A stretch of DNA of 44,823 bases. Source: Nitrospira sp. (lineage in GTDB: Bacteria; Nitrospirota; Nitrospiria; Nitrospirales; Nitrospiraceae). Under the pieces are notes generated by a model, which saw only the letters and a program-made list of their open reading frames with translations, did no database searches and was not told the DNA's origin. This document shows, one piece after another, positions 9,062 to 37,286 of the stretch. The stretch spans positions 173,583 through 218,405 of the forward strand of contig SWDH01000042.1 of the NCBI GenBank assembly GCA_005116945.1, in the 5' to 3' direction. Every line of letters begins with the position of its first letter. The stretch's first letter is position 1. Made by a program: the position numbers and the translations under genes.

Positions 9062-9136
9062 GCTGGCGTAGCTCAATGGCAGAGCAGCGGTTTTGTAAAC
9101 CGCAGGTTGGAGGTTCAATTCCTCTCGCCAGCTCCA
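9062..9136 (+). tRNA. tRNA-Thr (anticodon TGT)
   Basis: A full cloverleaf can be folded: acceptor GCTGGCG paired with CGCCAGC, D-arm GCTC...GAGC, and anticodon stem GCGGT/ACCGC with loop TTTGTAA. The T-arm is GGAGG-TTCAATT-CCTCT. The anticodon TGT reads ACA (Thr). The discriminator is T and CCA is encoded in the DNA (9134-9136). It is just downstream of the integrase. I found no second copy of its 3' end in the window that would mark an attachment-site repeat. Confidence 0.95.
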
Positions 9137-9429
9137 CAACTGTTCTGCATGACTGACGCAACTCGCGTCTACCCATCGATGATCGCATCACGCCGCCAGA
9201 AGCACACCGCCAGAGCATCTTGCTCTTGAATCTCCCGCGTGGAGTTATTGAAGAGACCCTACACCCCCTCGTAGGGCTTGGACGACAGTACAGTTATTCA
9301 TGCGCAATCCTAGCAAGAGCCTGTCTGACCATACGCTCATGGCAGGATAAGAAATTTGCATCAGATGCACCGGCCAGGAAAGACGGATAGACAAAGAGTC
9401 GACCGTTCACATTGTGGGAAAGGTGCAGA

Positions 9430-10848
9430 CTAGCGTTCAGCTTCCGTAAGGTCACCCTCCTCTTCCAGCTCTTCAAACTCAGCTTCGGCTTTAGCCTTTA
9501 ATGTTGAGGGGTGCAGGCCATATTTTTTGAGCATTTTATAGAAGTCCGCCCGATAGCGTCCGGCAAATTGGGCCGCGCGAGAGATATTGCCGCCGGTGAG
9601 CTGCAGGACGTTCTTCAGATAGGTTTTCTCAAACTCTTCCTTCGCTTCAGTCAACGGTTTCATTGGCGAGTCCGGAGATGTCGCCATCGCAGGCAGGAGA
9701 TCCGGGGTAATCATGTCTTGCCGCGTCATGACAGTGGCCTTCTCAATGACATTTTCTAACTCACGAACGTTTCCAGGCCAGAGATGTGCCACTAATCGAT
9801 TGAGCGCGGCCGGCGTAAAGCCACGCAACTCTTTATTCGCCCGTTTCGCACTCGCAGTCAGGAAATGCTGCGCCAGCAAGGGAATATCATCAGGGCGTTC
9901 ACGAAGTGGGGGGATAAACAGCGGGACGACGGAGATGCGATAGTACAGATCGTTCCGGAATGCCCCGTTCTTGACCGCTTCACCAAGGTCTTTATTGGTT
10001 GCCGTAATAATTCGCACATCAATCTTCGTTGAGAGTTCAGAGCCCACTTCTCGAACTTCCCGTTCCTGCACGGCCCGCAACAGTTTCACCTGCATCGAGA
10101 GCGGCATCTCGCCGACCTCATCGAGAAAGAGTGTGCCGCCATTGGCACTTTGAAACAGCCCTCGCTTCGAGGCATGGGCATTAGTAAAGGCCCCGCGCAC
10201 ATGTCCAAAGAGCTCTGATTCGAAGAGTGTTTCGGGAATGGCTGCACAATTGAGGGCGACAAACGGTCCTTTACTCCGTCGGCTGTTTGAATGGATCACG
10301 CGTGCGAACACTTCCTTACCGGTCCCGGTTTCTCCGAAGAGAAGAATGGTCGCGTCGGAGTCTGCCACCTGCACCACTTGCTGGAGTAGGCGCTGCATCG
10401 CAGGACTTCGCGCAACGATGTTATCCATGCCGTACAACTCGTTGACGAGAGACTTGAGTCGCTGAATCTCACCTCTCATCCGCTGGGGAGAAAGCCCTTC
10501 TTCAATCTTGGCCTTGAGTTCCTTGTCATCGAAAGGCTTCGTGAGATATCCGAACGCGCCACGCTGCATCGCTTCCACGGCATTGGGAATACTCCCGTGA
10601 GCGGTCAGGATGATAATCGGGAGGCCTGGATACATCCGCAACAGTTCTTCTGTCACATCCAATCCATCTTCACTCCCAAGGCGAAGGTCGGTAATGGCAA
10701 GGTCGAACCGGGTATTCTTCGCCACCGCAAGAGCTTCGCGGCCAGTCGTACAGCCTGTGACGGCAAAACCCATCGCGGTCAATCGCATTTTCACAAGATG
10801 TAACAATCCCTCCTCATCGTCGACTACAAGAATATGTTCTTTTTCCAT
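9430..10848 (-). CDS. Sigma54-dependent response regulator (GlrR/NtrC family)
   Basis: This 472-residue three-domain activator has a receiver domain (about 5-118, acid pocket VVDDEE, phosphoacceptor Asp54 in 'AITDLRLG'). A sigma54-interacting AAA+ domain (about 140-380) has Walker A 'GETGTGKE' at 172-179 and Walker B 'LFLDEVGEM'. A C-terminal Fis-type HTH follows ('LTGGNISRAAQFAGRYRADF'). The start at 10848 has GAAGGGA upstream; the longer frame does not. The GAFTGA loop that contacts sigma54 reads GAFTNA (219-224). It is the last gene of a kinase-lipoprotein-regulator operon with the order of E. coli glrK-qseG-glrR. Target promoters are unknown. Confidence 0.88.
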   Translation of the reverse strand: MEKEHILVVDDEEGLLHLVKMRLTAMGFAVTGCTTGREALAVAKNTRFDLAITDLRLGSEDGLDVTEELLRMYPGLPIIILTAHGSIPNAVEAMQRGAFGYLTKPFDDKELKAKIEEGLSPQRMRGEIQRLKSLVNELYGMDNIVARSPAMQRLLQQVVQVADSDATILLFGETGTGKEVFARVIHSNSRRSKGPFVALNCAAIPETLFESELFGHVRGAFTNAHASKRGLFQSANGGTLFLDEVGEMPLSMQVKLLRAVQEREVREVGSELSTKIDVRIITATNKDLGEAVKNGAFRNDLYYRISVVPLFIPPLRERPDDIPLLAQHFLTASAKRANKELRGFTPAALNRLVAHLWPGNVRELENVIEKATVMTRQDMITPDLLPAMATSPDSPMKPLTEAKEEFEKTYLKNVLQLTGGNISRAAQFAGRYRADFYKMLKKYGLHPSTLKAKAEAEFEELEEEGDLTEAER

Positions 10849-10858
10849 GAAGTCCCTT

Positions 10859-11674
10859 CTATGGTGCTGTGGGTTCCGGCGCAGTCGGAGGGGGAACAAC
10901 CGTGATTGAAGGACGGATAGGACGAACCTTATCCCGCGTTTCCTGGTCGATCCGCTTCAGTGCCTCCAATTGGTTCGTTAATTCCTCTATTTTTCTATCT
11001 CGATCCATCAGTTGCTTATGCATGGACAGGACCGTGCCTGTATCAGTTTGGCTTTTTGTGATATCTTTTTTCATGCTACCGACATCTCCCTTCCGATCAC
11101 GCTCAGCGAGATCACGCTGAAGATTTTCCAGGGATTGGGAGTCAGCATCCTTCATCGCTCTCAACTGTTGGATGATCCCTTCTTTATACAACACGTCTTG
11201 CATCAGTCCTACAAGCAAGTCTCGCACCAGCTGATCTGAAGCTTGTGCCAAGATAGCCTGACTTTCCGAAATGGCCGGGGCCGCCATGACCGATTGGAAC
11301 CACGATTGTTTAACGGGCGCCGCGTGATGCTCGAGGAGATCGATCCAGAGTTTGCTAGCAAATGCGAGCTGAGTCTGAGGGGCAACGGCAATGACTTTCT
11401 CAAAGTACTTCGAGGCACTATCGCGACTTTCGTACAATCCCAGTAACGCGCGGATAAAGTAGGAATAGTCGCAGGAATTGTGCTCGGCACATCTCTGAGC
11501 AAGCGCCTCCTGTTTTTTAGCCAATCCACGAAGCGATTGCGCCTCCCCTGCTTCTACGTGGAAATATGGCTGCGAAAATTGAGGGGCTGGAGACCATGCC
11601 GCGCATCCTGCCAGAGAAAAAAGACAGGACACGACTGCCAGGACAAGGCCTCTGTAGACAAAGACAACCTTCAT
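10859..11674 (-). CDS. QseG-like lipoprotein of a two-component operon
   Basis: This is 271 residues from ATG 11674. A lipoprotein signal (VLAVVSCLFSLAGC) with lipobox LAGC gives a lipid-anchored mature protein. The rest is helical: 'EALAQRCAEHNSCDYSYFIR' resembles the small-repeat region of QseG/YfhG. A long coiled-coil follows (about 185-250, 'DVGSMKKDITKSQTDTGTVL') before a Pro-rich end. Its ATG overlaps the kinase stop (ATGA), and the regulator begins 10 nt after its stop. In E. coli the equivalent lipoprotein helps the GlrK kinase in the envelope; that role here is inferred from gene order and type, since sequence similarity by eye is weak. Confidence 0.65.
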   Translation of the reverse strand: MKVVFVYRGLVLAVVSCLFSLAGCAAWSPAPQFSQPYFHVEAGEAQSLRGLAKKQEALAQRCAEHNSCDYSYFIRALLGLYESRDSASKYFEKVIAVAPQTQLAFASKLWIDLLEHHAAPVKQSWFQSVMAAPAISESQAILAQASDQLVRDLLVGLMQDVLYKEGIIQQLRAMKDADSQSLENLQRDLAERDRKGDVGSMKKDITKSQTDTGTVLSMHKQLMDRDRKIEELTNQLEALKRIDQETRDKVRPIRPSITVVPPPTAPEPTAP

Positions 11675-13125
11675 ACCGATTCTCCTGGCTTCATGAGGGG
11701 TAAGGTAAATCGTACGGTCGTTCCCTTCTTGGCTTCGCTTTCGATCCAAATCCGTCCTCCATGCGCTTCGACCACATTCTTTGCCAGTGCCAATCCAAGG
11801 CCGCTCCCTGGTGCGGCCTGCTTGGCCTTCGTGCGCCCTTGATAGAAGCGCTCAAAAATATAGGGCAGGTCTTCAGCTAGAATGCCGGGCCCTCCATCAG
11901 TCACACTCACCTCGAGAGTTCCCACACTCGGATCCGGTTTCATCACAACTTTGACGAATTTCAGGGCATTTGAAAGTAAATTGTCGAGCACTTGCTCGAC
12001 TCGAAACATATCGGCCTTGACCCACACGTGTCGCCCAGGCGTTTCCAGCAACAGCTGCACATGCTTGGCATCGGCAAGGAGTTGAACTTTGTTGACCGAT
12101 ATATCTGCGACCCGCTTGATATCCATAGGAACGATTCGATACTCCATCATCCCGGCATTCATCTTGGACAGATCCAGAATGGTGGAAATGAGCGTGATGA
12201 GTCGGCGGCTACTGTCTGCCATAATTCGCAGGGTCGTGCGCTGTTCTTGCACCAACGGGCCAGGAATTTCATCCAACAGTAAATGGGTGCCCTCTTGGAT
12301 TGAGGCCATGGGCGTGCGTAACTCATGGGAAACATGGGCGAGAAACTCTTCCTTCATATCATCCAACTCTTGGAGTTTCGTACCCATTCGATTGACCGCA
12401 TCAACGAGGTCTCGTAACTCGCTAGGGGCTCGAATATTCAGTGGGGTGCGGAAATTACCCTGCCCGATCTGTTTAATATGGCTCTGCAATTGCCGAAGCG
12501 GCCGTAGGATCGAATAGCTCGCAAAACCGGCGAGCGTAATGCCGAATACAAGCGCAAGCAGAACCAGCTGTTCGGTCACTGATTCTGCTTGGGCAGAACT
12601 TTCCCGTGACCGGCTCACTCCGACGCTGATGCCAGACTCATGAAGACTAATCAACTCTTGGAGCGTGGCGCTGATGCGCTCCATCAAGGCGTCTCGCCGA
12701 CCTTCATAGTCTCCAGACAGAGGCGCTGGAGACGAGGCCTTCTTCTCCAATTTTTCATGGAGCATCGCGAGTCGTTCTTGATGCATGTGCTTGACATCAT
12801 TGATTAGTTTATTGCCTTTTGGTGTCAATTCCTGCGCTTCTAAGGACTGGAGGCCACGATGAAACTCTTCAACCTCTTCATCGAAATGTCGTAAGAACGT
12901 CGCATCGCGTACGACCAGATACTTTTTTTCACTATTCAGCTGAGCATAGAGTACTGTGAGCAAGTGCTTAGCCGATTCGATCGCCGGGTAATGGAGCGTG
13001 ACCATATTGGCACTCAAGGCGGTTAGCTGACGCAATTGAAATAAGGCATACAAATTCACCCCTGCCATCACCACGATGATGAAGAGGGACGTCAGAATAA
13101 TCCGCCAAAAGACTGATAGACGCAC
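11671..13125 (-). CDS. Sensor histidine kinase (GlrK/QseE-like)
   Basis: This 484-residue membrane kinase has a TM helix at about 7-30, a helical periplasmic sensor (about 31-182), and a second TM at about 184-206. HAMP follows ('LRPLRQLQSHIKQIGQGNF'), then HisKA with phospho-His267 in 'FLAHVSHELRTPMASIQEG'. The ATPase domain has an N-box 'VEQVLDNLLSNALKF', G1 'VTDGGPG' and G2 'GSGLGLALAKNVV'. The all-helical periplasmic domain, the 'ASIQEGTHLLLD' sequence after the H-box and the lipoprotein plus sigma54-regulator downstream match GlrK/QseE systems. Its signal is not deducible. It heads the operon; the next genes overlap or abut it. Confidence 0.88.
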   Translation of the reverse strand: MRLSVFWRIILTSLFIIVVMAGVNLYALFQLRQLTALSANMVTLHYPAIESAKHLLTVLYAQLNSEKKYLVVRDATFLRHFDEEVEEFHRGLQSLEAQELTPKGNKLINDVKHMHQERLAMLHEKLEKKASSPAPLSGDYEGRRDALMERISATLQELISLHESGISVGVSRSRESSAQAESVTEQLVLLALVFGITLAGFASYSILRPLRQLQSHIKQIGQGNFRTPLNIRAPSELRDLVDAVNRMGTKLQELDDMKEEFLAHVSHELRTPMASIQEGTHLLLDEIPGPLVQEQRTTLRIMADSSRRLITLISTILDLSKMNAGMMEYRIVPMDIKRVADISVNKVQLLADAKHVQLLLETPGRHVWVKADMFRVEQVLDNLLSNALKFVKVVMKPDPSVGTLEVSVTDGGPGILAEDLPYIFERFYQGRTKAKQAAPGSGLGLALAKNVVEAHGGRIWIESEAKKGTTVRFTLPLMKPGESV

Positions 13126-13204
13126 CAGCGAAATTCTTTCTGGCCTCTAAGCAGCCACTCGATTGCCTGCAGAGACTGTAGGTAATTCCATACACTATTT
13201 CCTC

Positions 13205-13222
13205 TAGGCACACAAGTGCCTA
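13205..13222. promoter_or_regulatory. Palindromic site upstream of the sensor kinase operon
   Basis: TAGGCAC-acaa-GTGCCTA is a perfect 7-bp inverted repeat, 80 nt upstream of the kinase ATG and between two minus-strand genes. No T-run follows, so an operator is more likely than a terminator, but the binding protein is unknown. Confidence 0.4.
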
Positions 13223-13337
13223 ATTAACAAATCCTCTCGTTGTACTCGTATTTCTAAAGAAAGAAGGGACTAAGACAGTTTGAGCAGTTGCAGCCTGGAG
13301 AAGCGGAAACGTTCCTTTTACACCACGCTATGTGCCT

Positions 13338-14159
13338 CTATTTGAATGGCGTAACAAACCGGCGCTGGCGTCGCGACACGCCATGTAAAGAGGCAAACAG
13401 ATGGCCACGAAACAGCAACATCGCCACGGCAAGCGGTGGGGTAAGTAGTAGCCCGATATACCAGCTGATCGAAGCAGGGATACCCGCATAGTCCAGCCAA
13501 CCTCCGAGGATGGTAAAAGGGAGCACGAGGACTTGGGAAAAATCCAAACCAGCGCCTCGCCCTGCTCGACTGGAGAGAGAAAAAAACGACTGGAGGCCTG
13601 CTGGTGAAAGGATGATGGGGATGAGGATCAGGGCAAACGGTAGAAACCACTCAATCCAATTCTCAAGAACGAACTCATAGGAGGTTTTCAATACCTCAAG
13701 CGGTGAATCATGCCGAACTTGATAGATAATTTCAGGCGCGGGGTTCAGCAAGAGAAAGATGAGCAGGAGCGCTGCGTACGATAGCAGTTGCCCAAAGGGG
13801 TTCGCCTGAGTGCTGAGGTCGAGAGCCATCAACGGCAGCCAGAGGATGAATCCAATGCCGATGACATCCCAAAAATAGTGCCCGACGCTGCCAATCACGT
13901 CGCGAACGGTCAGTGCCCGAGTGTGGCTGATCGATTGTTCGATGAGACTGAGGGTCGCGCCGACCAGAAGCGCATTCACCGCGCCAAGGACAAACCCTCC
14001 GATCATGCCAAGGGGCGAGGCAATCTGCGTAGCAAGGAGCAGCAAAAATCCAAATCCCACCACGGCCACAATGGTCAACCAGCCGCGGACGAGTGATTCT
14101 CCAGTTTTACGAAAGGCATTCCGATAGAGTGAGACGGTTTCAGCAAGAATGCGTGACAT
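13338..14159 (-). CDS. Multi-pass inner-membrane protein of unknown function
   Basis: This is 273 residues from ATG 14159 (the earlier frame start would add a charged, unlikely leader). About six membrane segments are apparent, including 'LTIVAVVGFGFLLLLATQIA', 'MIGGFVLGAVNALLVGATL', 'YAALLLIFLLLNPAPEIIY' and 'WFLPFALILIPIILSPAG'. The Pro/Gly-rich breaks between helices and 'SPLEVLKTSYEFVLENWIEW' are reminiscent of glycerophosphoryl-diester/YciC-like integral proteins, but I cannot name a family. The C-terminus is basic (SRRQRRFVTPFK), expected on the cytoplasmic side. It is transcribed toward the kinase operon, with the palindrome 13205-13222 between them. Confidence 0.65.
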   Translation of the reverse strand: MSRILAETVSLYRNAFRKTGESLVRGWLTIVAVVGFGFLLLLATQIASPLGMIGGFVLGAVNALLVGATLSLIEQSISHTRALTVRDVIGSVGHYFWDVIGIGFILWLPLMALDLSTQANPFGQLLSYAALLLIFLLLNPAPEIIYQVRHDSPLEVLKTSYEFVLENWIEWFLPFALILIPIILSPAGLQSFFSLSSRAGRGAGLDFSQVLVLPFTILGGWLDYAGIPASISWYIGLLLTPPLAVAMLLFRGHLFASLHGVSRRQRRFVTPFK

Positions 14160-14290
14160 GAGAAACAATAGTCTGCTCGGGCTTCTCTGGTCAAGCCGAT
14201 CACGCCCCACTATAGGAACATTGACTTCCTCTATCCTATGCTTATGTGAAGGGTACGGGCACACTCGGATATCTGGAGAGGAGAGATAAC

Positions 14291-15166
14291 ATGGACATGA
14301 ACCGTATGACGATCAAACTACAAGAAGCGCTTCAGACCGCGTCGTCTCATGCCGCAAGACGAAGCCATCAAGGGATCGACGTAGAGCACCTTTTGCTTGC
14401 GTTCGTGGAACAGGATGGCGGTCTTGCGACGTCGCTCCTCGAACAGGCCGGGTTGTCGGTTCCGTCGGTTCGTCAGGCAGTGGAGCAGGCGCTGGCAAAA
14501 CTGCCTCAAGTACAAGGCGCAGGGGCGAGCCCCGGACAACTCCACGTCGCCTCCAGATTGAATCAGGTCCTGACCAACGCCGAAGATGAACAACGCGGTT
14601 TGAAAGATGACTATCTCAGTGTCGAACATATCGTCCTCGCCATGGTGCAAGAAGGGGGAATTTTCAAGAAACTTGGTCTGACGAAGGAACGACTCTTGGG
14701 CGCGCTCCAACACATACGAGGGTCTCAGCGTGTCACAAACCAAGACCCGGAAGGCACCTACCAAGCATTGGAAAAATATGGCCGCGATCTCACCCGCCTG
14801 GCGGGGCAAGGGAAACTGGATCCTGTCATTGGACGCGATGAAGAAATTCGCCGTGTCGTGCAAATTCTTTCACGGCGCACCAAGAACAATCCTGTACTCA
14901 TTGGAGAGCCTGGCGTCGGCAAAACCGCCATTGTCGAAGGGCTTGCCTCCCGCATTATCAAGGGCGACGTGCCTGAAGGACTGAAAAAGAAGCGTGTCAT
15001 CACACTTGACATGGGATCGTTGGTGGCGGGCGCAAAATTCAGAGGCGAATTCGAGGAACGATTGAAAGCCGTCCTCAAAGAGGTGCAGGCGGCTGAGGGA
15101 CAAGTCTTATTGTTCATCGATGAGCTGCATACAGTCGTGGGAGCCGGTGCGGCGTTAGGCTTGTGA
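14291..15166 (+). CDS. clpB: ClpB/ClpC-type disaggregase, C-terminally truncated
   Basis: The visible protein is 291 residues. It has the double Clp_N domain (about 1-145, '[13 protein letters not shown]' and '[13 protein letters not shown]'), the ClpB-type linker '[20 protein letters not shown]', and the start of AAA+ domain 1. Walker A is 'GEPGVGKTA' (205-213) and Walker B '[11 protein letters not shown]'. ClpB is normally about 860 residues and continues from 'VVGAGAA' into EGA.DA.N; here it switches to LGL and stop, because an inverted-repeat element begins at 15157. The middle domain, the second AAA+ ring and the sensor motifs are gone, so this copy cannot disaggregate proteins. The start is supported by AGGAGAG. 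Either a real truncation or a junction error. Confidence 0.9.
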
Positions 15167-15279
15167 AAACGGCCCCCAACGTCGTTCTCGGCTCGCCAAA
15201 ATCCTCAACGTACCCCAGAGGGTACGCCTCCGGTTTTAACTTGCCTGCGGCCTTGTTGGATGACCGTTTTGACAAGCCT
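15157..15279 (+). repeat. Dispersed inverted-repeat element, copy 1
   Basis: It is bounded by 16-bp inverted ends, AGGCTTGTgAAAACGG and CCGTTTTgACAAGCCT, with a core 'CCTCAACGTACCCC'...'GGGTACGCCTCC'. This copy supplies the last codons and stop of the truncated clpB. It has the same family layout as the elements at 31.1, 34.8, 35.5, 36.5 and 37.2 kb. No coding capacity; it probably folds into a long hairpin. Confidence 0.85.
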
Positions 15280-15398
15280 GCGGGAACCGACTTATGACGT
15301 TCAGAATGCCCCCACGGCGCGGAATTTTATGAATTGTTTCCCCTGGATCTCAATGCGATAATAGTTGCCAGATTTCTTTCGTAGCTAGAGGGCTTGCC

Positions 15399-15737
15399 AT
15401 GTCGTACATACGTATAAATCTTCTCGCCGTCTTCTTCCTGTTCTTCCTGTTTGGCCCGCCCGAGTCTCCTAGCTTTGCCGAAGACAAGAGCTTTTACAGT
15501 CCCGTCATTCAAGTCGATACGGAAAATCATCGAGTCTTGATTTCCACGTTTGGGTCAGTTTTTTGGATCGATGCTCCAGACGCGGCCAAACCGTACATCG
15601 AGAAGCTCCCGATCTCAGGCCTCGTGGATTTCGTCGTCGAGATGAGAGGGAACGAGCAAGCGCCCCTGCTGAAGACCTGGAAAGTAAAATCAGGCGAGAC
15701 AAGCTGCAAGTACTTTGATGGGAAAACCTGCAAGTAA
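15399..15737 (+). CDS. Small exported protein, paralog of the gene at 35780
   Basis: This 112-residue protein has a signal peptide (INLLAVFFLFFLFGPPES, cleavage near PSFA|EDK), so it is probably periplasmic. The mature part 'KSFYSPVIQVDTENHRVLI' with 'GSVFWIDAP' and 'GLVDFVVEMRGN' looks like a small beta-barrel or OB-like domain; the C-terminus 'SCKYFDGKTCK' has two Cys that could form a disulfide. It is clearly homologous, in DNA too, to the 112-residue protein at 35780-36118, with near-identical stretches 'SPSFAEDKSFYSPVIQVD' and 'APLLKTWKVKSGETSC'. It is followed by a decayed DUF3817 gene, exactly as the paralog is followed by an intact one. Function unknown. Confidence 0.7.
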   Translation: MSYIRINLLAVFFLFFLFGPPESPSFAEDKSFYSPVIQVDTENHRVLISTFGSVFWIDAPDAAKPYIEKLPISGLVDFVVEMRGNEQAPLLKTWKVKSGETSCKYFDGKTCK

Positions 15738-15742
15738 GGAAT

Positions 15743-15895
15743 GTTCCTTTCTGATCAATTCGCTACTGCTTCTTTCTCCCGAAGTTATTTATCCGGCACA
15801 AATGTTCCAATCGGAATAATAGACGCAACGAAGTATTACTCCCCGCTACTCGCACAACCTCCGGCATCCCCATGAAGCACTTCATCGGCATAGCA
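15743..15895 (-). pseudogene. DUF3817-like gene relic with internal deletion
   Basis: The DNA aligns with both ends of the intact gene at 36149-36445. 'CACAAATGTTCCAA', 'CGGAATAATAGACGCAA' and 'GGCATCCCCATGAAG' are shared. About 115 bp in the middle is missing, and the 5' end is cut off where dnaE sequence begins near 15896. It is therefore a non-functional duplicate of the cassette partner gene. Confidence 0.7.
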
Positions 15896-18256
15896 ATGAA
15901 TAATGGAAGCCTCGTCGCCTATGCGTTACGCATCACGGACCTCGACCCCCTCGTCTATACGCTCTTGTTCGAACGGTTCCTGAATCCCGAGCGCGTGTCC
16001 CTCCCCGATATCGATATGGACTTCTGTATGGAGCGACGGGGTGAAGTCATTAACTACGTGGTCGATAAGTACGGCCAAGACCACGTGGCCCAGATCATTA
16101 CATTCGGCACGCTTGGGGCGAAAGCCGCGATCCGGGACGTGGGCCGCGTGCTGGAGATCCCCTATGCCGAAGTTGATCGAGTCGCCAAGCTCGTTCCGAA
16201 TCAGCTCAACATCACGCTCCAACAGGCTCTCGATCAAGAACCGAAGCTGCGCGATCTCGTCGAGACCGATACCCGGGTGAAGGAGCTGATGGGCATCGCC
16301 CGTTCCCTTGAAGGACTCGCGCGCCATGCCTCGACCCACGCAGCCGGCGTGGTGATTTCGGAAGGTCCGCTCACGGACCACGTGCCGCTCTATAAAGGTG
16401 CCAACAACGAAATCGTCACCCAATATTCGATGGGAGACGTCGAAAAGATCGGGCTCGTCAAATTCGATTTCCTGGGCCTCAAAACCCTCACCATGATCAA
16501 GCGTGCCGAGACGTTGATCAATGAGCGGCATCCCGACAATCCGCCGTTGCTCATGGAGCAGGTCGCATTCGACGACCCCAAGACATTCACGCTGCTGTCA
16601 TCCGGCAAGACGACCGGAATCTTTCAATTGGAAAGCTCTGGCATGCGCGACCTCCTGACCGGTTTTAAGCCGGACCGGTTCGAGGACATCATCGCCATTA
16701 TCGCGCTCTATCGCCCTGGTCCGATGGATCTGATCCCCGACTTCATCAAACGCAAGCAGGGTAAAGTTCCGATTGCCTACGAAGTGCCGGAGCTTGAACC
16801 AATCCTGAAGGACACCTACGGGGTTATCGTCTACCAGGAACAGGTCATGGCCATTGCCAACAAAGTGGCAGGCTTCTCACTGGGCCAGGCCGATATTCTC
16901 CGGCGCGCAATGGGCAAGAAGAAGCCGGAGGAGATGGAGAAGCTGCGCGCGCAGTTCCTGAGCGGTGCGAAGACAAACAAGATTCCTGACAAGAAAGCGG
17001 ACAAGCTCTATGAATTGATCCAGAAGTTTGCGGGGTACGGGTTCAACAAGTCGCATGCTGCGGCCTATGCCGTGGTCTGCTACCAGACCGGTTACTTAAA
17101 AGCGCACTATCCGACCGAGTTCATGGCTGCGCTGATGACGACCGACATGGGCAATGCCGACAAGATCGTCGGCTACTTTACGGAATGCCGCGATCTCAAC
17201 ATCAAAGTCCTGCCTCCGGACGTGAATGAAAGTCATAAGAACTTTACCGTGGTCGACCATGCCATCCGATTCGGTTTGGCGGCCATCAAGAATGTCGGTG
17301 AAGGTGCCGTCGAATCGATCATCGATATTCGCAATACACAAGGCCCCTTCACCTCTTTCTTTGAATTTTGTCGCCGCGTCGACCTCCACAAGGTGAATAA
17401 GCGTATGTTGGAAGGGCTCATCAAAACCGGCGCGTTCGACTCAACCGGAGCGAAGCGTTCGCAATTGGCTGCGGTACTCGATCAAGCCGTTGAGGACGGA
17501 GCCGCTGCGCAACGCGAACGAGATCTCGGGCAGACCAATATTTTTGGCGACGAGGTGAATGGACAGGGTTCTGAGAAACACCTGGCCGCGCCACCGTTAC
17601 CCAATATTCCGGAATGGGACCAAAGCGAGCGTTTGAAACATGAGCGGGAATTGACCGGCTTCTATATTTCCTCCCATCCACTGGCACGCTATGAGAGCAC
17701 CATCCAGGCGCTTGCCACGGCCTCGACGATCGGCCTGTCTGAACTATCTGACGGTCGGGAAGTGAAACTCTGCGGAATTATCACCACCGTCAAAAGCATG
17801 CTGACCAAAAAGGGTGATAGGATGGCTTATCTCACTCTTGAAGATCTTCTCGGTGTGGTTGAGATCATCGTGTTTCCAGATCTTTATAAACAAGCCGCTG
17901 AGTTGGTTGTTCCGGAACGTCTCGTACGCATCACAGGCACAATCGATCGTGGAGATAAAGGTACGAAAATTCGAGGAAGCAAGATTGAACCGCTCGCCGA
18001 GGTGCAAGCGCAAACCATCAAACGGGTCTATATTCGATTAACGGATCGTCCAGGTGTGACAGAACAATTACCGCGGCTCCGTGAGATCTTTTTGCGGCAC
18101 CCCGGCGTCACAAGCGTCTCACTCACATTACGGATGGATTCAGCACTGGAAGCCGAGACGGCCCCGCTTCCTCACATGACGGTTACCCCCAGCGAACGGT
18201 TTGTGGCAGACGTTGAAGAAGTGCTAGGCAAAAGGACTATTATTCTGCTATCGTAG
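15872..18256 (+). CDS. dnaE: DNA polymerase III alpha subunit, N-terminally truncated
   Basis: DnaE similarity starts abruptly at 'NGSLVAYALRITDLDPLVYT' and continues to the C-terminus. Retained are the palm acids in 'LPDIDMDF', 'HASTHAAGVVIS', 'YRPGPMDLIPDF', 'VYQEQVMAIANKVAG', 'GFNKSHAAAYAVV', and a C-terminal OB-fold/clamp region. A normal DnaE is about 1,150 residues; the PHP domain and the first part of the palm, including GPGRGSAAG, are missing. The first eight residues of this frame (MKHFIGIA) derive from the antisense of the DUF3817 relic, not from dnaE; ATG 15896 is another start. A replicative polymerase is essential, so either another copy exists or this junction is artefactual. 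accA follows normally. Confidence 0.9.
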   Translation: MKHFIGIAMNNGSLVAYALRITDLDPLVYTLLFERFLNPERVSLPDIDMDFCMERRGEVINYVVDKYGQDHVAQIITFGTLGAKAAIRDVGRVLEIPYAEVDRVAKLVPNQLNITLQQALDQEPKLRDLVETDTRVKELMGIARSLEGLARHASTHAAGVVISEGPLTDHVPLYKGANNEIVTQYSMGDVEKIGLVKFDFLGLKTLTMIKRAETLINERHPDNPPLLMEQVAFDDPKTFTLLSSGKTTGIFQLESSGMRDLLTGFKPDRFEDIIAIIALYRPGPMDLIPDFIKRKQGKVPIAYEVPELEPILKDTYGVIVYQEQVMAIANKVAGFSLGQADILRRAMGKKKPEEMEKLRAQFLSGAKTNKIPDKKADKLYELIQKFAGYGFNKSHAAAYAVVCYQTGYLKAHYPTEFMAALMTTDMGNADKIVGYFTECRDLNIKVLPPDVNESHKNFTVVDHAIRFGLAAIKNVGEGAVESIIDIRNTQGPFTSFFEFCRRVDLHKVNKRMLEGLIKTGAFDSTGAKRSQLAAVLDQAVEDGAAAQRERDLGQTNIFGDEVNGQGSEKHLAAPPLPNIPEWDQSERLKHERELTGFYISSHPLARYESTIQALATASTIGLSELSDGREVKLCGIITTVKSMLTKKGDRMAYLTLEDLLGVVEIIVFPDLYKQAAELVVPERLVRITGTIDRGDKGTKIRGSKIEPLAEVQAQTIKRVYIRLTDRPGVTEQLPRLREIFLRHPGVTSVSLTLRMDSALEAETAPLPHMTVTPSERFVADVEEVLGKRTIILLS

Positions 18257-30187: not shown

Positions 30188-31113
30188 CGAGCACCCTGCA
30201 TAAAGACATTACCGAACTCATCGGACGGACTCCCCTCGTCCGCCTGAACCGGTTGTCCCCTGTTGGCGGGGCGACAATCTATGGAAAAGTCGAGTTCTTT
30301 AATCCCGGCGGAAGCGTCAAGGATCGCATTTGTCTCAATATGATCGACGAGGCAGAGCGCCTTGGCGCGTTAAAGCCTGGCGGTACGATTGTAGAGCCGA
30401 CCAGTGGAAACACCGGAATCGGCCTGGCATTAGTCGCGGCAGTCCGTGGTTATAAGTTGATTCTCGTCATGCCGGAGAGCATGAGCATGGAGCGGGCAAG
30501 CCTCTTGTCGTCCTATGGCGCACAGCTCGTGTTGACGCCGGCTTGGGAAGGCATGAAGGGTGCGATTCGCGAGGCTGAAAGCATCATTGCGCAGAACCCG
30601 TCATATTTTATGCCGGATCAGTTTTCCAACCCAGCCAACCCGGCTATGCATAAAAAGACCACGGCGATCGAGATTCTTGAGTCGCTGAACGGAAAGATCG
30701 ATGCATTTGTAGCAGCAGTGGGGACTGGCGGCACCATTACCGGGTGCGGAGAACTGTTCAAAGAGCGGAATTCCAACGTGCAGGTCGTCGCAGTTGAACC
30801 GGCTGGATCACCGGTCTTATCAGGCGGAGAGCCAGGGCCCCATAAAATTCAAGGCATCGGCGCGGGCTTCATCCCGAAAGTCTTGAACCGGACCATTATC
30901 GATCGCGTCATAACCGTAACCGATGACGAAGCTTATCAAACGGCCAAACAGCTCTCGAAAAAAGAAGGCCTCTTGGTGGGAATTTCTGCCGGAGCCAATG
31001 TATTCGCTGCGCAGAAAGTGGCACAAGAGCTTGGATCGGGCAAAAACGTGGTCACCATCTTGTGCGACACAGGCGAGCGATATATCAGCATCGAGAAGTA
31101 TTTCAATATTTAA
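30184..31113 (+). CDS. cysK: PLP-dependent cysteine synthase
   Basis: This 309-residue beta-family PLP enzyme has the internal-aldimine Lys in 'FNPGGSVKDRICLNMIDEAE', a phosphate-binding loop 'VEPTSGNTGIGLALVAAV', and 'GTGGTITGCGELFKER' with the KIQGIGAGFIP motif near residue 220. This combination is O-acetylserine sulfhydrylase type, close to CysK/CysM. It makes cysteine from an activated serine and sulfide or a thiocarboxylated carrier; with a sulfur carrier directly upstream and overlapping (GTGA), the carrier-dependent route is plausible. A GTG start is used. A repeat element follows immediately, starting within the stop codon. Confidence 0.93.
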   Translation: MTSTLHKDITELIGRTPLVRLNRLSPVGGATIYGKVEFFNPGGSVKDRICLNMIDEAERLGALKPGGTIVEPTSGNTGIGLALVAAVRGYKLILVMPESMSMERASLLSSYGAQLVLTPAWEGMKGAIREAESIIAQNPSYFMPDQFSNPANPAMHKKTTAIEILESLNGKIDAFVAAVGTGGTITGCGELFKERNSNVQVVAVEPAGSPVLSGGEPGPHKIQGIGAGFIPKVLNRTIIDRVITVTDDEAYQTAKQLSKKEGLLVGISAGANVFAAQKVAQELGSGKNVVTILCDTGERYISIEKYFNI

Positions 31114-31236
31114 GGATGCTGAAAATGGCTTCCAACTTTGTTCTCGGCTCAAGAAAATCCTCAACGTACCCTCGAGGGTACGCCTCCGGTTTTCTCTCGC
31201 ATGCGGCCTCGTTGGTAAGCCATTTTGAGCATCCTT
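31112..31236 (+). repeat. Dispersed inverted-repeat element, copy 2
   Basis: The 20-bp ends are AAGGATGCTgAAAATGGCTT and AAGCCATTTTgAGCATCCTT, with one mismatch. The centre carries CCTCAACGTACCC / GGGTACGCCTCC. It separates the cysteine synthase stop from the first E1-like gene within the sulfur cluster and overlaps the cysK stop codon by two bases. Confidence 0.85.
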
Positions 31237-34753: not shown

Positions 34754-34875
34754 CAGAATGCTGAAAAAGTCCGCCAGCTTTGTTCTCGCATCGCTCAGAG
34801 ACTCAATGTACCGCATGGGTACGCCTTGCCTTCTCGCTTGCTACGGCCGCGCTGACGGTCTTTTTGAGCATTCTG
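34754..34875 (+). repeat. Dispersed inverted-repeat element, copy 3
   Basis: Ends are CAGAATGCTgAAAAAGTCCGCCAGC and GCTGACGGTCTTTTTgAGCATTCTG. The core 'CTCAATGTACCGC'...'GGGTACGCCTTGCC' is the usual one. It lies between the second E1-like gene and the JAMM protease; a longer open frame upstream of the protease reads through it but is not a real N-terminus. Confidence 0.85.
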
Positions 34876-35472: not shown

Positions 35473-35595
35473 CAGGATGCTGAAAAAGCCCGCCAGCTTC
35501 GTTCTCGCATCGCTCAGAGGCTCAACGTACCGCAAGGGTACGCCTCGCATCCTCACTCGCTGCGGCCTCGCTGGACGGCCTTTTTGAGCATCCTG
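35473..35595 (+). repeat. Dispersed inverted-repeat element, copy 4
   Basis: Ends are CAGGATGCTgAAAAAGCCCGCCAGC and GCTGGACGGCCTTTTTgAGCATCCTG. It starts one nt after the JAMM gene stop codon and lies 185 nt before the exported-protein gene. Together with the oppositely oriented copy at 36520-36643 it frames the exported-protein/DUF3817 cassette. Confidence 0.85.
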
Positions 35596-35779
35596 CGGAA
35601 GCGTAATCCTATTGAGCCGTAGATACGTATCTTCAAAGTTCCCGCTCGCAGCACTGTTCTCCCGCAATCTGTAACGACGCTCTGGTCGCCTGCCGCTCTC
35701 GAAAATTTCCAGTTTGTTTCCACTTGGCCCTGGTGCGATAATGATTTCCTGATTGGCCTCATACGCAGGAGTGCTCGCC

Positions 35780-36118
35780 ATGTTAGAGATGCGTACGATT
35801 CTTCTCGCTATATTCTTCAGCTTCTTCCTGCTCTGCCCACTTGCGTCCCCTAGCTTTGCCGAAGACAAGAGTTTCTATAGCCCGGTCATTCAAGTTGACG
35901 TAGACACGCATCGCGTCTTGATCTCGACCCTCGGCGGGATATTCTGGATAGATGTTCCGGACACAGCCAAGCCTCACATCGAAAAGCTGCCGATCTCAGG
36001 ACTCGTGGATTTCGTTGTCGAGATGAGAGCGAACGGGCAAGCGCCCCTACTGAAAACTTGGAAGGTAAAATCTGGAGAAACGAGCTGTCTCCACTTCGAT
36101 GGGAAAACCTGCAAGTAA
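35780..36118 (+). CDS. Small exported protein, paralog of the gene at 15399
   Basis: This 112-residue protein starts at ATG 35780, with AGGAG 8 nt upstream; 35789 is an alternative. The signal peptide is TILLAIFFSFFLLCPLASPS, and the mature protein starts around FAEDK. 'SPVIQVDVDTHRVLISTLGG', 'FWIDVPDTAKPHIEKLPISG' and 'LVDFVVEMRANGQ', with two C-terminal Cys (SCLHFDGKTC), match the first copy at 15399 throughout, with DNA of roughly 80% identity judged by eye. Function unknown; soluble periplasmic beta-rich domain is the best description. It is convergent with the intact DUF3817 gene, and both are bounded by inverted copies of the 120-bp repeat. Confidence 0.72.
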   Translation: MLEMRTILLAIFFSFFLLCPLASPSFAEDKSFYSPVIQVDVDTHRVLISTLGGIFWIDVPDTAKPHIEKLPISGLVDFVVEMRANGQAPLLKTWKVKSGETSCLHFDGKTCK

Positions 36119-36148
36119 CACCCCTACTTTCCGTCTTTTTCTTCCCAA

Positions 36149-36445
36149 TCAGTTCACCACGACTTCTTTCTCACAAAGATGTTTGTCCAACACAAATGTT
36201 CCAAACGGAATAATAGACGCAATAAATGCGTACAGTGAAAACATGAATGGCCAGCGATGCCTAACATGTATCACCGCCAACAGGCCGACATAGAGCAGGA
36301 ACAATCCTCCGTGTATCGCCCCCACAACTCTCACGACCTCAGGCATCCCCATGAAGTATTTCATCGGCATCGCGACACATAACAGGATGAGAAATGAACA
36401 ACCTTCGGCTAACGCAATCATTCTAAACATTCTGATCTGACTCAT
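36149..36445 (-). CDS. DUF3817-like integral membrane protein
   Basis: This 98-residue protein has three membrane helices: 'IALAEGCSFLILLCVAMPM' (with the N-terminal AEG..F..L start typical of DUF3817), 'VVGAIHGGLFLLYVGLLAVI', and 'FSLYAFIASIIPFGTFVLD'. The PMKYFMGMPEVVR stretch, the IHGGLF motif and the final PFGTF match the DUF3817 family. Its function is unknown; homologues occur next to small export/redox genes. A decayed duplicate sits at 15743-15895. The gene converges on the exported protein gene, 30 nt away. Confidence 0.75.
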   Translation of the reverse strand: MSQIRMFRMIALAEGCSFLILLCVAMPMKYFMGMPEVVRVVGAIHGGLFLLYVGLLAVIHVRHRWPFMFSLYAFIASIIPFGTFVLDKHLCEKEVVVN

Positions 36446-36519
36446 GGTTACTGTTCTTCCTTCTTTCGCACGGAAAAAATAACATCCGTCAACTTGGCCT
36501 AGGGCAAGACTACTACAAT

Positions 36520-36643
36520 GAGGATGTTCAAAAAGCCCGTTCAGCGAGGCCGCAGCGAGCGAAGACCGGAGACGTACCCGCTGGGGTACGTTGAGGATCT
36601 GAGCGATGCGAGAACAAAGCTGGCGGGCTTTTTCAACATCCTC
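36520..36643 (-). repeat. Dispersed inverted-repeat element, copy 5 (inverted)
   Basis: Ends are GAGGATGTTcAAAAAGCCCGTT and GCGGGCTTTTTcAACATCCTC. The core reads CGTACCCGCTGGGGTACGTTGAGG, i.e. opposite to copies 1-4. Its end touches the stop codon of the CxxC gene at 36642. Confidence 0.85.
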
Positions 36644-37161: not shown

Positions 37162-37286
37162 CAAGATGCTCAAAAAGGCCGTCCGCAAGGCCGCAGCCGA
37201 AGAAAGCACCGGAGGGGTAGCCTCTGGGCTACGTTGAGGATGCTTTCGAGGTGAGAACGACGCTGGATGGCTTTTTCAGCAACTTG
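37162..37286 (-). repeat. Dispersed inverted-repeat element, copy 6 (inverted)
   Basis: Ends are CAAGATGCTcAAAAAGGCCGTCC and GGATGGCTTTTTcAGCAACTTG, with core GGGTAGCCTCTGGGCTACGTTGAGG. It ends right at the stop codon of the ABC transporter. Same orientation as copy 5. Confidence 0.8.

Follow-up and report, generated by a model that had tools for sequence, protein, structure and literature searches.

The truncation of clpB and of dnaE at one junction of a Nitrospira sp. draft genome is very probably an artefact of assembly, and we infer from the sequence that the junction is a contig chimera of three pieces in a gapped draft. In the living organism, the two genes would most likely be whole and located at separate places. 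The locus is thus not to be taken as a case of gene loss: clpB and dnaE were most likely broken by wrong joining. The stretch analysed here (44,823 nucleotides; the window) corresponds to positions 173583-218405 of scaffold C37 in the source genome (G000), a 3.39-Mb draft of 46 scaffolds with a completeness of 82.43% and a contamination of 2.01%. Its ends coincide with two gaps of the scaffold, a 100-N gap (C37:173483-173582) on the left and a 10-N gap (218406-218415) on the right; it contains no N, and open reading frames run through both the clpB part and the dnaE part.

The two truncated genes

The features at and around the junction are listed in Table 1. The initial annotation described clpB as cut short, and this truncation is real: the 291-codon frame consists of 288 clpB codons, reading ...GAGAA at their end, followed by LGL* past the break, and the junction at 15154|15155 is sharp. 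The clpB part is collinear with scaffold C11:239949-238398 of G007, the nearest relative in our collection, with an identity of 93% at the nucleotide level and 99% at the protein level; among the named relatives, the best protein match was that of Nitrospira sp. UBA5698 (78%). When G000 was searched genome-wide with a ClpB protein model, this fragment, one complete paralogue, which we take to be clpC, and one weak match (C25:41440-41706; E 5.7e-4) were found, and the missing half of clpB was not. The missing piece on the clpB side amounts to 2459 bp on the G007 scale, including the probable hybrid part of G007 described below; as DNA, it was not found in the whole of G000 among the best 40 of 297 candidates. 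The 133 bp just past the clpB break are 74% identical to the clpC-type paralogue, and such a paralogue-like stretch is a plausible place where contigs could end.

Table 1. Positions of the features discussed, in window coordinates
Feature	Position	Strand	Remarks
clpB 5′ part	14291-15154	+	288 codons of a 291-codon frame; intact gene of G020, 864 residues
Insert between the broken genes (749 bp)	15155-15903	+	Orthologue of G041 C17:24421-25234
Dispersed palindromic repeat copy	15157-15280	+	Left end 2 bp from the clpB break
Small gene (112 aa)	15399-15737	+	Start resembles a signal peptide (by eye); no Pfam match; paralogue at 35753-36118
DUF3817 remnant	15744-15903	-	Internally deleted; cut by the dnaE junction; same remnant in G041
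dnaE 3′ part	15904-18256	+	Residues 371-1152 of 1152 (G020 reference)
Second cassette	35474-36642	+	Usual locus; holds repeat, small gene, DUF3817 gene and repeat
Second-cassette repeat	35474-35595	+	
Second-cassette small gene	35753-36118	+	Paralogue of 15399-15737
Second-cassette intact DUF3817 gene	36149-36445	-	
Second-cassette repeat, other end	36520-36642	-	

The truncation of dnaE is equally real. Its frame spans 15872-18256; dnaE sequence begins at 15904, and the first whole codon corresponds to residue 371, so that the right junction, at 15903|15904, is also sharp. The PHP domain, already noticed as lacking, gave no match in this part at E 0.01 in a Pfam search, and the loss is larger than had been described: the Pfam DNA_pol3_alpha profile is matched only from position 69 of 260, the first 68 positions being absent, and the beginning of the polymerase core domain is therefore gone too. 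The fragment is 97% identical to the G007 protein, and the gene that follows it is presumably accA-like. With a DnaE protein model, this fragment was the sole match in G000, and the missing half was not found anywhere in the genome. The missing piece on this side is 2838 bp on the G007 scale; a search for it as DNA in selected stretches of G000 returned short-repeat matches, and the missing half was not found there. The suggestion that the locus carries partial duplicates of genes with intact copies elsewhere was thus not borne out in G000 by the ClpB and DnaE models.

The insert, its cassette and the repeat

The repeat, the small gene and the damaged DUF3817 gene reported between clpB and dnaE are all present in the 749-bp insert, and the reported duplication of the cassette was confirmed at the second locus (Table 1). 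Apart from itself, the insert (15281-15903) has in G000 one match of 75% and one short match of 85% (all 10 of 10 candidates scored). Its best match among 31 other genomes of the genus is in G041, with an identity of 89% over 15281-15903 and 97% over the repeat. The G041 cassette (C17:24421-25234) sits at the locus matching 34.9-36.6 kb of the window, where the window has a different copy. In G041, the DUF3817 remnant runs on past the point equivalent to 15903. Because this remnant is common to both genomes, the decay of the DUF3817 gene predates the junction: the mutilation is real, and it is older than the event with which it had been associated. Position 15903 was accordingly rejected as a natural right boundary of the cassette, and the insert is a fragment with no natural right end, since the G041 remnant continues past the jump into dnaE. 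A search of G000 for the rest of this cassette, with G041 C17:25235-26536 as the query, gave just two weak matches of 66 and 75%. Separately, a stretch of G000 about 64 kb upstream of the junction (C37:123641-124782) is 94% identical to the interior of the G007 cassette locus (171001-169859), although the cassette normally sits at another place.

The repeat is an imperfect palindrome of 121-125 bp, as judged from the alignment of 15 copies, six in the window (those in Table 1 and 31113-31236, 34755-34875 and 37162-37285) and nine elsewhere in G000. The matches to it in G000 are a lower bound, as the best 40 of 235 candidates were scored, and it is also frequent in G007 and G041. At least one both-sided change that preserves pairing was seen at 16 of the 36 predicted pairs, which is compatible with a DNA or an RNA hairpin alike. 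Apart from tRNA, no Rfam family reached the gathering score in the window, so that the repeat copies there have no match at that level. Two further dispersed repeat families, of about 95 and 195 bp (G007 C11:219407-219501 and 229529-229724), also have matches in G000.

Scaffold C37 falls into 13 blocks on G007 C11 with a changed order, which may reflect real reshuffling or scaffolding. Chaining was done after the removal of four alignment rows that overlapped others or were paralogous. Of the 26 synteny-block ends, 2 had a repeat copy no more than 150 bp away, one of them being the present junction; the mean for random positions was 1.3 (P 0.38). Rearrangement driven by the repeat in general was therefore not supported.

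Relatives and assembly gaps

The window is collinear with G007 on both sides of the junction: positions 9092-15154 correspond to C11:243491-238398, and those from 15904 onwards correspond to 192230 downwards. In G007, a single scaffold carries both clpB and dnaE, ordered and oriented as in the window, and the breakpoints are 46,167 bp apart. By itself, this arrangement would suggest a 46-kb deletion in G000. However, the interval is not absent from G000: about 29 of the 46 kb (summed alignments) were found on three scaffolds, namely on C20 (parts of G007 203010-235938), C39 (196096-202014) and C37 (195069-195995). The remainder was not found in G000, the largest missing stretch being approximately G007 221618-227897. 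Furthermore, the adjacency in G007 is insecure because two 100-N gaps (195996-196095 and 201091-201190) lie inside the 46-kb stretch, and the clpB-dnaE neighbourhood of G007 may itself be a product of scaffolding. The deletion was thus dropped as an explanation. To the left, the collinearity with the 160-260 kb region of G007 C11 starts at a tRNA-Thr gene (9062-9136); the first 2.7 kb of the window match C11 431-428 kb, and the rest of the window to the left of this tRNA gene has no match of at least 300 bp to C11.

The obvious yardstick, G007, seems to be similarly faulty in and beside clpB. The last part of its clpB frame (C11:236835-239327) matches the clpC-type paralogue of G000 with an identity of 85% across some 630 bp, and the frame contains a 10-N gap, located about 200 bp beyond the breakpoint; it is probably a clpB/clpC assembly hybrid. 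The sensor kinase gene preceding it (C11:239946-240910) lacks some parts and is broken up by a segment of about 420 bp in inverted orientation, while this gene is whole in the window (one frame, 11671-13125) and is matched from end to end in G020. The latter genome (about 20 contigs, about 99% complete) carries a complete clpB on C8 (141260-143854) and a complete dnaE on C15, and the sequences after clpB and before dnaE are the same as in G007.

These flanking sequences were also located in G000. On the clpB side, the sequence found about 0.5 kb past the gene end in G007 and G020 is present in G000 from C20:140803, immediately after a 100-N gap (140703-140802). On the dnaE side, the sequence that precedes the gene start by about 1.7 kb in these relatives is present in G000 from C37:55731, again immediately after a 100-N gap (55631-55730). 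Both ends face the missing gene halves; the true neighbours of these halves are present in G000 and are disconnected from them. It had been proposed that the missing parts might lie beside matching cassette ends; the parts were not found, and their neighbours adjoin N gaps instead. Another gapless jump was seen in the stretches of G000 that were read: at C20:164343, near the scaffold end, the equivalents of G007 203010 and 213835, 10.8 kb apart, are joined. This join truncates a gene, presumably AddB-like, whose frame in G007 has 1090 codons, and there is a 10-N gap at a distance of about 240 bp; the join appears to be a misjoin.

Among 24 relatives of the same genus (G001-G024), dnaE was found as a frame with 1150 codons or more in 16 and as fragments in six, and had no match in two. 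For clpB, a frame of at least 800 codons was found in 18, including the probable hybrid of G007; in the remaining six, clpB reaches a contig end (G006, G015, G017 and G023), is a short fragment (G002) or has only a clpC-type match of 48% (G016). The frame ends were checked at seven loci chosen mainly for short frames, of which six gave a frame and G036 gave none. The contigs end at clpB residues 334 (G015), 305 (G023), 333 (G017) and about 285 (G036), all within about 50 codons of the present break. This site is not exclusive, since contigs of other genomes also end elsewhere in the gene: at residue 602 in G006 and at about 135 in G002, while those of G034 and G037 start at residues 105 and 225, respectively.

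Origin of the junction

The findings can be put together as follows. An assembler or a chimeric template would have joined the dead end of the clpB contig to an orphan cassette piece of 749 bp, and this piece to the dead end of the dnaE contig, the join being made in silico or in the library. The 749 bp would represent the cassette locus, as an orphan allele or an orphan copy of it. Assembly or binning may be the step at which the two missing pieces (about 2.5 kb and about 2.8 kb when measured on G007) were lost. The proposal of an assembly chimera at repeats is supported in this form as regards the chimera; only the left junction is at a repeat edge, and the right one lies inside the DUF3817 remnant and inside dnaE. 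Several observations argue against a chimera. Inspection of the junctions by eye revealed no clear microhomology or overlap that would explain the joins, and the window contig is free of N, with open frames in both gene parts. Moreover, both jumps are on the same strand and local on the G007 scaffold (the cassette locus is some 66 kb from clpB, and dnaE a further 20 kb or so from that locus). The last point is unexpected for random chimerism and expected for a local rearrangement, although the G007 scaffold is gapped there.

A real rearrangement in this lineage, in which a deletion or replacement removed the region from the clpB 3′ part through the dnaE 5′ part with a cassette copy as filler, would also account for the sharp junctions, the ungapped contig and the shared scaffold, order and orientation of the two genes in G007, and the left break at the edge of the palindromic repeat could reflect real recombination. 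We nevertheless regard it as very unlikely. Much of the interval persists on other scaffolds of G000, its adjacency in G007 is insecure and the genes are on different contigs in G020; moreover, the only dnaE of the assembly has neither the PHP domain nor a part of the core, so that a real event would leave the assembled genome with no intact dnaE unless an unassembled copy exists. It is likewise very unlikely that the junction is real in a living subpopulation, with the palindromic-repeat cassette in place of the clpB and dnaE ends and either intact copies elsewhere or a DnaE that functions as two parts encoded separately. That the locus is a broken extra copy, with intact clpB and dnaE elsewhere in the cell, is hardly probable: intact copies may have gone unassembled in an incomplete draft, and a second dnaE-like gene occurs in 5 of the 40 relatives searched (G008, G028, G032, G033 and G038), but these genes are only 32-44% identical and no second clpB or dnaE was seen in G000. 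Besides, the locus looks ordinary, since its flanks (after dnaE, and before clpB with the kinase) are the same as in G007 and G020.

It is extremely improbable that the cassette and its palindromic repeat form a mobile unit whose insertion caused the damage. On its left, the insert ends within 2 bp of the repeat end, the cassette is present in copies, and a piece of the G007 cassette region lies elsewhere in G000, as noted above. An inserted unit would have defined ends on both sides; here, only the left end is at a repeat edge, and the right end is no unit boundary, as it falls within a remnant that extends further in G041. In addition, the frames of the insert include no transposase-sized gene, synteny-block ends are not enriched at the repeat, and no simple insertion could disrupt two separate genes in one step.

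The repeat resembles the repetitive extragenic palindrome-type elements in being short, palindromic and present in many copies per genome, although at 121-125 bp it is longer than the classical REPs. In PMC5767232, the passages on 'palindromic' sequences that were consulted all concern CRISPR. As for the junction itself, misassembly in k-mer assemblies is treated in part of PMC8172020, and a benchmark on Illumina data (PMC11261854) puts the number of chimeric contigs per genome at 2.63 for SPAdes and 22.15 for megahit, these being chimeras between genomes. As in chimeric contigs (misassemblies) of draft and metagenome-assembled genomes, halves of unrelated genes are sharply joined in the present contig, their counterparts are missing, and the assembly has gaps at the points where the true neighbours ought to be attached. 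Unlike the usual ones, it has two joins, one on either side of a 749-bp piece; the usual locus of this piece is on the same contig, at a distance of about 20 kb.
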